Part shown: positions 32,325 to 36,536 of the stretch, one piece after another
Position numbering within the stretch: position 1 is the first letter of the stretch
Layout: every line of letters begins with the position of its first letter
NCBI GenBank assembly: GCA_016875535.1
Contig: VGPF01000005.1
Coordinates: 1-64,000, forward strand
Reading direction: 5' to 3'
Length of the DNA: 64,000 bases
DNA from: Chloroflexota bacterium
Lineage (GTDB): Bacteria > Chloroflexota > Dehalococcoidia > SHYB01
Notes under the pieces: model-generated
Told to the model about the DNA's origin: nothing
What the model saw: only the letters and a program-made list of their open reading frames with translations
The model's database searches: none
Made by a program: the position numbers and the translations under genes

Positions 32325-32353
32325 TTGCCCCCTCTTGACCTGCCTGGTATAGT
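32325..32353 (+). promoter_or_regulatory. Promoter of the attenuated peptidase transcript
   Basis: TTGCCC (32325-32330), a 17-base spacer and TATAGT (32348-32353) give a vegetative-type promoter starting an RNA at about 32360, roughly 180 bases before the peptidase ATG. Confidence 0.6.
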
Positions 32354-32359
32354 GATTCC

Positions 32360-32505
32360 GCTTAGACATCGACCCCTCGTGGCGATGAGCGAAGCAGCGG
32401 TCTAAACAGTAGTTTAGTAGTCGCTTGGATCGTGCAAACGACCGAGACGGCGGAAGCAATGGCTTGTTGCAAAGCCCTCTCGGTCTATGCGAGAGGGCTT
32501 TTTTC
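32360..32505 (+). promoter_or_regulatory. Attenuator or riboswitch-like leader upstream of the P1 peptidase gene
   Basis: The leader has mutually exclusive folds. A sensor part pairs TTAGAC (32362-32367) with GTCTAA (32400-32405). A second hairpin, GGATCGT-GCAA-ACGACC (32427-32443), uses the same bases as an antiterminator in which GACCGAGA (32440-32447) pairs perfectly with TCTCGGTC (32478-32485), the loop-side arm of the terminator at 32472. Forming the second hairpin frees the terminator; opening it allows the antiterminator. No known riboswitch class is recognised. Confidence 0.65.
32472..32505 (+). terminator. Intrinsic terminator of the peptidase leader
   Basis: AAGCCCTCTCG (32472-32482) and CGAGAGGGCTT (32490-32500) form a perfect 11-bp stem with a 7-base loop, followed by TTTTC in a run of six T's. 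It lies 33 bases upstream of the peptidase ATG, so it can only act as a regulated terminator or as a barrier to read-through. Confidence 0.85.
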
Positions 32506-32537
32506 TTGCCCCCGCGAAGGCACATTACGAGAAGGAT

Positions 32538-33506
32538 ATGTGGAACGCCATCACGGACGTCGCAGGGATCCGGGTCGGGCACTGGACGGACGCCAAGGCG
32601 CTCACCGGCTGCACCGCAGTCCTCTGTGAACGGGGCGCAGTGGCGGGCGTAGACGTTCGCGGCGCCGCCCCAGGGACACGGGAGACCGACCTGATGCGAC
32701 CGGGAACGCTCATCGAGCGCGTCCAGGGGATCCTCCTCACCGGCGGCAGCGCCTTCGGCCTGGATGCCGCAGGCGGCGTCATGGCATGGCTGGAGGAGCG
32801 CGGCGCCGGCTTTAAGATCGGCACGTGGAGCGTCCCGCTCGTCGGCGCGGCGGTCATCTTCGACCTCGCGCTGGGCGATGGCAGCGTCAGGCCGGGTGCA
32901 AAGCAAGGCTACGCAGCGGCCAAAGGGGCGAAGGACGGCCCGGTGGCCGAAGGAAACGTTGGCGCAGGGGCAGGAGCCACCGTGGCGAAGATGCTGGGGC
33001 CTGCTGCCCTGGTGAAGGGCGGCCTCGGAACGGCCAGCAAGCGGCTGGGCGACGGCACGGTAATCGGAGCGATCGTCGTGGTGAACGCAGGCGGCGAGAT
33101 CGTTGACCCGAAGAGCGGGAAGACCGTCGCAGGGCCGCGGAAGGCGAAGAGCAAAGGGTTCGAAAGCACGATGGCGCTCCTGCAGGCGAAGCGGAGCGCC
33201 CCGCCCCCGGGCGGCAATACGACTATCGGAGTCATAGCAACAGACGCACAACTGACAAAAGAACAAGCGAATAAAGTAGCGCAGATGGCCCAGAACGGCC
33301 TTGCCATGGCGGTCCGCCCAGCCCACACGATGTTCGACGGCGACACCATCTTCGTGATGGCGACCGGGGAGCGGAAGCAGCGGACGAACCGCTCGGACGT
33401 CACGGTGATCGGCGCGACGGCCGCCGAAGTGACGGCTGAGGCAATCGTCAGAGCGGTTAAGGCTGCCAAATCGGTGCCCGGCGCGCCCGCGATACGGGAC
33501 CTATAA
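32538..33506 (+). CDS. P1-family peptidase (DmpA/BapA-like, self-cleaving aminopeptidase)
   Basis: A 322-residue Ntn-hydrolase of family S58/P1. It opens MWNAITDVAGIRVGHWTDAKALTGCTAVLC, contains GVDVRGAAPGTRETDLMRPGTLIERVQGILLTGGSAFGLDAAGGVM (about 34-80), and has the autoproteolysis site GGNTTIGVIATDA (about 224-236), where cleavage before the Thr would create the N-terminal nucleophile. The DmpA group releases N-terminal D- or L-amino acids or beta-peptides. The ATG at 32538 has GAAGGAT before it. A terminator-based attenuator controls entry into the gene. A Rossmann/DUF2520 gene starts 7 bases downstream, so the pantothenate genes may share this transcript. No signal peptide. Confidence 0.9.
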   Translation: MWNAITDVAGIRVGHWTDAKALTGCTAVLCERGAVAGVDVRGAAPGTRETDLMRPGTLIERVQGILLTGGSAFGLDAAGGVMAWLEERGAGFKIGTWSVPLVGAAVIFDLALGDGSVRPGAKQGYAAAKGAKDGPVAEGNVGAGAGATVAKMLGPAALVKGGLGTASKRLGDGTVIGAIVVVNAGGEIVDPKSGKTVAGPRKAKSKGFESTMALLQAKRSAPPPGGNTTIGVIATDAQLTKEQANKVAQMAQNGLAMAVRPAHTMFDGDTIFVMATGERKQRTNRSDVTVIGATAAEVTAEAIVRAVKAAKSVPGAPAIRDL

Positions 33507-33513
33507 AGAGCAT

Positions 33514-34431
33514 ATGCAGCAGTTCAACAACATAGGGTTCATCGGAGCAGGGAGGCTCGGCGGCACGCTGGCCGAGGCTCTTGCGCGGCGCGGTTATCGC
33601 ATTGCGGCCGTCTCCTCACGCTCCCATGCCTCCGCCGCGCGCCTCGCCAACGGCACGGGTCAGGCGCCGCTCGTTTGCAACTCGCCCCAAGTCGTCGCAG
33701 ATCGGTGCGACCTGGTCTTTATCACAACCCCGGATAACGTCATCAAGGAAGTCGCCGACTCCATCACCTGGCGCAAAGGTCAGAGCGTGGTGCATTGCAG
33801 CGGCGCATTGACCGTGCTCGCCCTGGATTCGGCGGCCCGCGCAGGCGCGAACGTCGCCGGCTTCCATCCCATGCAGACCTTCACCACGGCGAACCAGACC
33901 CTGGACGACGTTACCATCGCCATCGAAGGCGCAGACGAGATCGCCGGGGCGCTGGCCCGGGTGGCGCGGGACATCGGCTGCAAGCACGTTATCCTTGCAT
34001 CGGGGGACAAGACCCTCTATCACATGAGCGGCGTCCTGGCGAGCAACTATGTGGTCACCCTCCTGAACCTCGCCGAAGAGCTCTGGGAGGCCCTTGGCAT
34101 CTCCCGCGCAGCCGGACGGGAAGCCCTGCTGACTCTTCTCAAGGGAACCATCGCCAATATCGAGCAGGCCGGGAGCGTCCAGGCCCTCACCGGGCCCATA
34201 GCCCGGGGGGATGACGCCACCATCGCGGCGCACCTTGAGCGCCTTGCCACCGACGCCCCCGCACTGCTGGCCCTCTATCGAGAATTGGGCCAACTCACCA
34301 TCCCCATCGCCCAGGCGAAGGGGACACTTGACGAACGAACCGCGCAAAGGCTGCGCGCTATCCTCAGCGGTCCGGACGACCGCTCTCTATCACCACGGAG
34401 CGCCACAGCTCCCAAGGAGGAACTGCGATGA
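33514..34431 (+). CDS. Rossmann/DUF2520 oxidoreductase in the pantothenate cluster
   Basis: The 305-residue protein has an NAD(P)-binding N-terminus (FNNIGFIGAGRLGGTLAEALARRGYRIAAVSSRSH, GxGxxG at about 11-16), a dehydrogenase-like core (FITTPDNVIKEVADS, VVHCSGALTVLALDSA, GFHPMQTF) and the C-terminal all-helical DUF2520 domain with DKTLYHMSGVLASNYVVTLLNLAEELWEALGISR. This is the 6-phosphogluconate/ketopantoate-reductase-like two-domain layout. Its position directly before panD, panB and panC, with no panE gene in view, makes ketopantoate reduction an attractive inferred role, not shown by sequence. Its stop overlaps panD. Confidence 0.82.
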   Translation: MQQFNNIGFIGAGRLGGTLAEALARRGYRIAAVSSRSHASAARLANGTGQAPLVCNSPQVVADRCDLVFITTPDNVIKEVADSITWRKGQSVVHCSGALTVLALDSAARAGANVAGFHPMQTFTTANQTLDDVTIAIEGADEIAGALARVARDIGCKHVILASGDKTLYHMSGVLASNYVVTLLNLAEELWEALGISRAAGREALLTLLKGTIANIEQAGSVQALTGPIARGDDATIAAHLERLATDAPALLALYRELGQLTIPIAQAKGTLDERTAQRLRAILSGPDDRSLSPRSATAPKEELR

Positions 34432-34817
34432 TGAGGAGAATGTTGAAGAGCAAGCTCCATCGCGGGACAGTAACCGAGGCGAACGTTGACTACGAAGGCA
34501 GTATCACGATTGATGCCGACCTTATGAAAAAGGCGGACATCCTGCCATACGAAGAGGTCCACGTCCTCAGTGTGGACAACGGCGCGCGCCTGACCACCTA
34601 CGCCATCGAAGGGCCTCCCGGCTCCGGCGTCATCTGCGTCAATGGCGCGGCGGCGCGGCTCATCCACAAGGGCCACACGGTGATCATCCTCACCTACCAG
34701 ACCTTGGGCGATCGGGACTCCCACGACATCCACCCGACGCTCTGCTACCTGGACAAGAAGAACCGCATCGAACGCATCGGCCATCAGGACCGCGCAACAG
34801 TCACGCTCGGAGTTTAG
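34428..34817 (+). CDS. panD: Aspartate 1-decarboxylase
   Basis: Makes beta-alanine for pantothenate. The 129-residue proenzyme has the self-cleavage site Gly24-Ser25 in VDYEGSITIDADL, at the same residue number as in E. coli PanD, which supports the ATG at 34428. Cleavage gives a pyruvoyl cofactor on the alpha chain. Further conserved blocks are RMLKSKLHRGTVTEA, NNGARLTTYAIEGPPGSGVICVNGAAARL (with a D for the first N) and GHTVIILTY. A ribosome site AAGGAGG lies 6 bases upstream, inside the end of the DUF2520 gene. Confidence 0.96.
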   Translation: MMRRMLKSKLHRGTVTEANVDYEGSITIDADLMKKADILPYEEVHVLSVDNGARLTTYAIEGPPGSGVICVNGAAARLIHKGHTVIILTYQTLGDRDSHDIHPTLCYLDKKNRIERIGHQDRATVTLGV

Positions 34818-34847: not shown

Positions 34848-35690
34848 ATGCGCATCACCGTTGACCAGATCAAACAGATGAAGAAGAGCGGCGAGAAGAT
34901 CGCCATGCTCACCGCCTACGACTATCCGACGGCCAAGCTCGCCGACGCTGCGGGCGTGCAGATGATCCTCGTCGGCGATAGCCTGGGCATGGTAGTCCTG
35001 GGGTACGAGTCAACGCTGCCAGTGACGATGGACGAGATGCTGCACCATGTCAAAGCAGTGGTCCGCGGCAGCAGCAAAGCGATGGTCGTCGGCGATATGC
35101 CCTTCATGTCGTACCAGGCCAGCCTGAGCGAAGCGATGCACAATGCAGGCCGCTTCCTCAAGGAGGCGAACTGCCAGGCGGTGAAGCTGGAGGGCGGCGA
35201 GCGGACGGCGGAGACGATCCGCCACATCGTGCAGGCGGGGATCCCCGTGGTGGGGCACATCGGCCTCACGCCGCAATCCGTCAACCAGCTGAGCGGCTAC
35301 AAGCTCCAGGGCAAGACGCCCAAGGCCGCCGTCCAGCTCATCAAGGACGCCCACGCCCTAGAGGAGGCAGGCGCCTTCGCCATCGTGCTCGAGTCCATCC
35401 CTGCGCCCTTGGCGAAAGTCATCACCGAGCGCATCGGCATTCCCACCATCGGCATCGGCGCGGGCGTGGAGTGCGACGGCCAGGTGCAGGTCTTCCACGA
35501 CATCATGGGCCTCTACCCCGATCTTTCGCCCAAGCACGCCAAGCGATACGCCTCCCTGGCGGGAGTGATGCAGAGCGCCATCGCCGCGTATGTGGATGAA
35601 GTGAAGCGGGGCACGTTCCCCACCGCCAAAGAGAGCTACGGCCTGGACAACACCGCGGTGCGCGAACTGACCGAGATCGCGGCGCGCTAA
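34848..35690 (+). CDS. panB: Ketopantoate hydroxymethyltransferase
   Basis: Transfers a hydroxymethyl group from methylene-tetrahydrofolate to alpha-ketoisovalerate. The 280-residue barrel shows IAMLTAYDYPTAKLADAAGVQMILVGDSLGMVVLGYESTLPVTMDEMLHH (about 18-67), KLEGGERTAETIRHIVQAGIPVVGHIGLTPQSVNQLSGYKLQGKT, and IGIPTIGIGAGVECDGQVQVFHDIMGL. The metal-binding Asp in VGDSLG and the Asp at DMPFMSYQ are present. AGGAGG lies before the ATG. It sits between panD and panC. Confidence 0.97.
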   Translation: MRITVDQIKQMKKSGEKIAMLTAYDYPTAKLADAAGVQMILVGDSLGMVVLGYESTLPVTMDEMLHHVKAVVRGSSKAMVVGDMPFMSYQASLSEAMHNAGRFLKEANCQAVKLEGGERTAETIRHIVQAGIPVVGHIGLTPQSVNQLSGYKLQGKTPKAAVQLIKDAHALEEAGAFAIVLESIPAPLAKVITERIGIPTIGIGAGVECDGQVQVFHDIMGLYPDLSPKHAKRYASLAGVMQSAIAAYVDEVKRGTFPTAKESYGLDNTAVRELTEIAAR

Positions 35691-35699
35691 CTTCGCCCG

Positions 35700-36536
35700 A
35701 TGCACGTTGTTCACACCGTCGGCGAATGCCGGCGCATCCGCGCCATGCTCAAAGGCGGCCTGGGCTTTGTGCCCACCATGGGCTACCTCCACGAAGGGCA
35801 CATGACCCTGGTGCGCCATGCCAGGGCTGCAAACGACCACGTGGCCGTCAGCATATTCGTCAACCCGGCGCAGTTCGGGCCGAACGAAGACTTCGCGGCC
35901 TACCCGCGCGACCTCAACCGCGACCTGGCAATGCTGGAGCAAGAGGGCGTGAGCTTCGTCTTCAACCCCTCGCCGGAGGTCGTCTATCCCAAGGGCTTCG
36001 AGACCTACATGGTCCCCGGCGAGGTGGCCGAGCCGCTAGAGGGGGCGCGACGGCCGGGCCACTTTCGCGGCGTGGACACCGTTGTGGCCAAGCTCTTCAA
36101 CATCGTCCAGCCGCACCGCGCTTACTTTGGGGAGAAGGATGCCCAGCAGGTGCGGGTCATCAAGCGGATGGTGAAAGACCTGGACATCCCCGTGGAAATC
36201 GTCATCGTCCCCACCGTCCGAGAGCCGGACGGACTGGCGATGAGCAGCCGCAACATCTATCTGAACGAGCGCGAGCGCAAGGCCGCCCTCTGCCTCATCA
36301 AGGGGATGCGCCTCGCGCATTCCCACTGGCAGGAGGGGAAGCGCAACGCGGAGACCCTGCGCAAGCTGGTGGAAGAGACGATAGAGGCAGAGCCCCTTGC
36401 CGCGCTGGACTACGTCTCCCTGGCCGATTCCGAATCGCTCAACGAGCTGCACGGCACCGTTTCGGGCGCGGCGCTGCTCTCCCTCGCCGTCCGCATCGGC
36501 AAGACGCGTCTTATCGACAATATGACGCTGGAATAG
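35700..36536 (+). CDS. panC: Pantothenate synthetase
   Basis: ATP-dependent joining of pantoate and beta-alanine. The 278-residue HUP-domain protein has the phosphate-binding GLGFVPTMGYLHEGHMTLVRHAR (about 20-42, HxGH), FVNPAQFGPNEDFAAYPRDLNRDLAMLEQEGV, FRGVDTVVAKLFNIVQPHRAYFGEKDAQQ, and the KMSKS-like DGLAMSSRNIYLNERERKAA. It starts at ATG 35700, 9 bases after panB. With panD, panB and the DUF2520 gene it makes a nearly complete pantothenate run. Confidence 0.97.
   Translation: MHVVHTVGECRRIRAMLKGGLGFVPTMGYLHEGHMTLVRHARAANDHVAVSIFVNPAQFGPNEDFAAYPRDLNRDLAMLEQEGVSFVFNPSPEVVYPKGFETYMVPGEVAEPLEGARRPGHFRGVDTVVAKLFNIVQPHRAYFGEKDAQQVRVIKRMVKDLDIPVEIVIVPTVREPDGLAMSSRNIYLNERERKAALCLIKGMRLAHSHWQEGKRNAETLRKLVEETIEAEPLAALDYVSLADSESLNELHGTVSGAALLSLAVRIGKTRLIDNMTLE

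Follow-up and report, generated by a model that had tools for sequence, protein, structure and literature searches.

Transcription attenuators of the PyrR type depend on an upstream hairpin which, when bound, blocks formation of an antiterminator, with the consequence that a terminator forms. TPP, FMN and other terminating riboswitches provide end-product feedback on genes for vitamin synthesis or uptake via a sequestered antiterminator. The pan motif (RF01749 in Rfam) was reported from several phyla, in front of operons that contain panB, panC or an aspartate decarboxylase gene, and, according to the part of that report devoted to it, is composed of two tandem hairpins, each carrying two conserved bulged A's (Weinberg et al. 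2010, PMC2864571). Beyond this description, the literature searched contained a single mention of the motif, among the 5'-UTR elements of the Bacillus amyloliquefaciens transcriptome (PMC4634765), and no ligand or effector was named. Here we analyse a leader located within a stretch of 64,000 nucleotides (the window; contig VGPF01000005.1 of assembly GCA_016875535.1, positions 1 to 64,000) of a Chloroflexota bacterium belonging to the Dehalococcoidia. In our main reading, to which we assign a probability of about 0.8, it carries the pan motif (RF01749) and acts as a transcription attenuator for the pantothenate operon, switching it off at high pantothenate/CoA supply. What this analysis contributes is the placement of the leader in RF01749, evidence that the antiterminator is conserved, and an extension of the regulon.

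Placement of the leader in the pan motif family

The leader comprises the following elements:
32325..32353, plus strand: promoter-like site (TTGCCC at 32325-32330, 17 nt, TATAGT at 32348-32353 with extended TG)
32364..32391, plus strand: pan hairpin 1, putative sensor unit 1, AGACATCGACC / GGCGATGAGCG, bulged A's 32372 and 32388
32421..32450, plus strand: pan hairpin 2, putative sensor unit 2, TCGCTTGGATC / GACCGAGACGG, bulged A's 32429 and 32447
32440..32451, plus strand: antiterminator 5' strand GACCGAGACGGC, common to the 3' arm of hairpin 2
32474..32485, plus strand: antiterminator 3' strand GCCCTCTCGGTC, common to the 5' arm and loop of the terminator
32471..32504, plus strand: intrinsic terminator AAAGCCCTCTCG-loop-CGAGAGGGCTTT followed by a T run

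Promoter-like sites of this kind were found twice in a scan of 3 kb (0.3 expected), and transcription would be expected to start near 32360, downstream of the site listed; by eye, many relatives carry a similar -10-like sequence at the corresponding position before hairpin 1. The arms of hairpin 1 extend over 32364-32374 and 32381-32391, with eight of nine counted pairs formed in the window copy, and those of hairpin 2 over 32421-32432 and 32439-32450; the GCAA-loop hairpin noticed originally (32427-32443) is the upper part of the longer hairpin 2. The terminator stem (32471-32501) has 12 pairs and is followed by T's. The fold of the leader is more stable than expected by chance (z = -3.8; none of 200 shuffles was equally stable). 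A second copy of the leader was not found in its own genome, nor a tRNA or tmRNA in the window.

The original prediction could not place the leader in a known class, and an Rfam comparison was proposed with it. At gathering thresholds, a scan of the whole window gave no match because the score of the window copy falls short of the family's gathering score, whereas a sensitive scan of 501 bases revealed a full-length match (1-92) to RF01749 at 32364-32454 with 31.9 bits and E 0.0011 (gathering score 36.2). The remaining candidates of the sensitive scan were at noise level; among those rejected was the PyrR binding site RF00515 (20.1 bits against a gathering score of 54, E 2.3). An independent covariance model, constructed from 43 class-mates only and with the window's own family left out, found the window at 52.2 bits and E 4.7e-12 (347 kb searched), and with the same model the family relatives L023, L128 and L138 scored 46-54 bits. 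In terms of its sequence, the leader is a divergent new copy of this catalogued orphan RNA family and can thus be placed in a known class, contrary to the earlier statement.

The leader precedes five genes in the order S58-DUF2520-panD-panB-panC:
32538..33506, plus strand: S58 peptidase family protein of the DmpA/BapA type, first controlled gene (PF03576, E 5e-55)
33514..34431, plus strand: Rossmann/DUF2520 protein (PF10727 and PF10728), possible ketopantoate reductase as judged from operon position
34428..34817, plus strand: panD, aspartate 1-decarboxylase (TIGR00223, above cut-off)
34848..35690, plus strand: panB, ketopantoate hydroxymethyltransferase (TIGR00222, above cut-off)
35700..36536, plus strand: panC, pantoate-beta-alanine ligase (TIGR00018, above cut-off)

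When class-mates were searched with RF01749, 43 of 60 genomes had matches at E up to 10 and 194 of 393 at E up to 1. From these, 135 hits, the window itself among them and many weak by score, were fetched, and in 133 the motif is situated directly upstream of a pantothenate operon, whose first recognisable gene encodes DUF2520 (69), S58 (40), PanD (17), PanB (6) or PanC (1). That the leader controls an operon headed by an S58 peptidase gene and continuing into the pantothenate genes, as originally proposed, agrees with this context. At 41 outside S58 homologue loci other than L138, only one weak match to the pan model was obtained (L181, E 0.13); the element is thus missing from the S58 genes sampled elsewhere, and the leader follows the pantothenate operon rather than the S58 peptidase gene.

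Alternative pairing of antiterminator and terminator

Among 43 aligned relatives, 96.8% of the alignment cells pair and 12 of 21 pairs show double-sided changes, a level of covariation reached by none of 500 shuffles; when the partner was slid by one column, pairing fell to about one third. The changes are unevenly distributed: double changes occur in all ten pairs of hairpin 1 and in two of the 11 pairs of hairpin 2, the sequence of which is near-invariant in 128 class leaders. Such invariance is expected if the 3' arm has to satisfy two partners, and direct recognition of the sequence by an effector would have the same result. Since hairpin 2 hardly varies, its pairs and the antiterminator rest on conserved complementarity and not on compensatory change. 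The segments TTAGAC (32362-32367) and GTCTAA (32400-32405) had been regarded as a possible sensor stem; this stem is broken in the genus-mate L138, which reads TGAGAC/GTCTAA, and inspection by eye showed nothing equivalent in other relatives, so that it was dropped.

In the window, GACCGAGA (32440-32447) and TCTCGGTC (32478-32485) are exact complements and, beyond one C.C mismatch, GGC (32449-32451) pairs with GCC (32474-32476), which results in a GACCGAGACGGC/GCCCTCTCGGTC duplex of 11 pairs around one mismatch with -20.3 kcal/mol. In 1.8% of shuffles, the hairpin and terminator regions shared an exact 8-mer complement; the comparative support is much stronger than this. When growing transcripts of the window were folded, the antiterminator was part of the best fold for ends at 32485, 32490 and 32495; from 32500 onwards, where the second arm of the terminator is present, the combination of hairpin 2 and terminator is favoured (-60.6 vs -53.3 kcal/mol with the antiterminator forced, at 32506).

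A terminator follows hairpin 2 within 95 nt in 112 of 128 class leaders. Pairing of the pan 3' arm with the 5' arm of its own terminator had a mean energy of -12.9 kcal/mol, compared with -5.6 kcal/mol for 87 control terminators drawn from the same fetched loci of relatives and -6.6 kcal/mol for the 3' arm of the own terminator. For 47 dissimilar representatives the value was -11.4 vs -6.9 kcal/mol for shuffled arms (Wilcoxon p 6e-9), but only 26 of these leaders individually beat 95% of their shuffles. The motif TCTCGG is kept in the 5' arm of 38 of 106 terminators and CCGAGA in the 3' arm of 17 of 106, an excess that a second pairing partner of the 5' arm would predict. Of 48 pan leaders in Bacillota, 33 possess a terminator, and the complementarity is weaker but non-random (-7.7 vs -4.5 kcal/mol, p 4e-9); swapping of terminators between Bacillota genomes made no difference (own -7.7, swapped -7.8 kcal/mol, p 0.64) and gave no signal of compensatory change, so that here, too, the antiterminator rests on conservation. 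As judged by these comparisons, the proposal of a transcription attenuator in which antiterminator and terminator exclude each other is supported: its elements are present in the window, and the alternative pairing is conserved across the class. The idea that the leader is no switch at all and merely ends in a plain terminator of the upstream DUF2784 gene with chance complementarity, for which the position of the terminator downstream of that gene might speak, is extremely improbable in view of the promoter-like site between the two and of the class-wide conservation of hairpins, place and complementarity.

Under the attenuator reading, the growing RNA would, without effector, pair GACCGAGACGGC of the hairpin 2 3' arm with GCCCTCTCGGTC of the terminator 5' arm, and the antiterminator so formed would permit read-through into S58-DUF2520-panD-panB-panC. 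At high pantothenate or CoA, an effector, either the metabolite or a protein that signals its level, would bind both bulged-A hairpins and keep hairpin 2 closed, whereupon the terminator would form and transcription would stop. We infer this direction (bound = OFF) and the pantothenate or CoA signal from the layout of related leaders. The panB-first leaders of class-mates (L069, L079, L086, L104, L119) lack a terminator, and their pan 3' end extends into the ribosome-binding site; in these leaders the switch probably acts on translation, and L119 is without a recognisable hairpin 1. Such a terminator is likewise missing from Bacillota leaders in which a gene resembling an energy-coupling factor (ECF) S component comes first, and there hairpin 2 ends next to or within the ribosome-binding site. 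With hairpin 2 closed and occupied, the gene would be switched off in both the terminator and the ribosome-site layout, which makes feedback repression the simplest reading.

Regulon and nature of the signal

In seven Bacillota loci (L260, L280-L283, L286, L287), the pan motif is located 2-8 bases before a gene for an ECF S-component-like protein (overlapping it in L280), and PF12822 confirms this assignment for two of the genes. In five of the loci the transporter gene is followed by a pantothenate kinase gene, of type III in L260 and L281-L283 and of type II in L287. No family model names a substrate for these S components, and the gene context suggests that they import pantothenate. At another Bacillota locus, L284, the pan match is strong (43 bits), and the gene after it resembles those for membrane proteins of the oligopeptide-transporter type. 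Within the class, the pan motif of L019 (contig 245 of genome G008) directly precedes coaX and a coaBC-like frame, the latter recognised by eye, and appears to sit on a putative CoA-synthesis operon; a PanB match was not found in this genome, which is 82% complete. The element is common to genes for pantothenate synthesis, likely uptake, phosphorylation and use, and its occurrence before coaX-coaBC and before ECF transporter and kinase genes suggests a signal that reflects pantothenate or CoA status, and not a peptide or beta-alanine.

Two further loci, L218:3468-5020 (G021 contig 8) and L235 (G246 contig 52), have the pan motif before a gene for a hexulose-phosphate-synthase/RraA fusion. The fusion proteins are 83% identical, their host genomes belong to different families, and among 21 genomes tested the full-length fusion is present in exactly these two. 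No PanB match was obtained in G021 (98% complete), whose pan operon has the order DUF2520-panD-panC; that of G246 is without panB beside panD, with only a weaker PanB match elsewhere in the genome. The fusion may be a non-homologous replacement of PanB, which likewise catalyses an aldol-type addition of a one-carbon unit.

As to what senses the signal, we see about an even chance that the pan hairpins of this attenuator bind a regulatory protein reporting the pantothenate or CoA level. Small bulged hairpins in tandem are in line with this, and a dimeric protein-binding motif was already suggested in the section on the motif in 2010 (Weinberg et al., PMC2864571); moreover, copies that apparently have hairpin 2 only (e.g. 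L119) fit one binding site per hairpin. Against it, a motif that precedes pan genes in Chloroflexota as well as in Bacillota would call for an equally widespread RNA-binding protein. It is possible, if on the doubtful side, that the same attenuator is a riboswitch to which pantothenate, phosphopantothenate, pantetheine or CoA binds directly: the regulon, which spans synthesis, putative uptake, phosphorylation and coaBC, and the strong conservation of the bulges and adjacent bases would suit such a sensor, but some ten pairs and two bulges per hairpin leave little room for the pocket of an aptamer with high selectivity, and the literature searched contains no report of binding.

A new, unclassified attenuator specific for S58 and sensing a peptide or beta-alanine, as originally suggested, is very unlikely. 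The S58 gene does come first here, as it does in the 40 class leaders counted above, but motif and antiterminator also precede operons that start with other genes, including transporter-kinase operons, and the out-of-sample pan model finds the window at E 5e-12. Most pan operons do not begin with S58, and neither a peptide nor beta-alanine is used by the ECF-transporter, pantothenate kinase and coaBC genes found behind pan RNAs elsewhere, which makes these two ligands improbable; pantothenate, which had been named as well, is still a plausible signal, as is CoA.

Returning to direct sensing, we offer as a tentative and rather speculative generalisation that the pan RNA senses pantothenate, a phosphorylated intermediate or CoA, acting through an antiterminator in some lineages and through occlusion of the ribosome site in others, and so coordinates pantothenate synthesis, uptake and phosphorylation. 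If this were true, the pan RNA would represent a vitamin B5/CoA riboswitch class.

Comparison with described systems

The leader in the window resembles the pan motif RF01749 in its tandem bulged-A hairpins and its pantothenate operon context and differs by its score below the Rfam gathering score. The motif has been catalogued since 2010, and its description at that time, as far as the account of the motif in that paper goes, is without an expression platform; the antiterminator/terminator platform is laid out here, as are, relative to the same account, the S58, DUF2520, coaX-coaBC and transporter-kinase contexts (PMC2864571). The comparison yields a predicted mechanism with an exact, mutable paired region and a predicted sign (closed = off), and the wider regulon, with its putative ECF transporter, two types of pantothenate kinase and coaBC, narrows the signal to pantothenate/CoA status. 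To PyrR-type attenuators (RF00515) the likeness is one of the mode of working; the genes concerned are pyrimidine genes there and pantothenate genes here. With the TPP/FMN-type riboswitches, none of whose Rfam families matches the leader, it would share a similar feedback logic.
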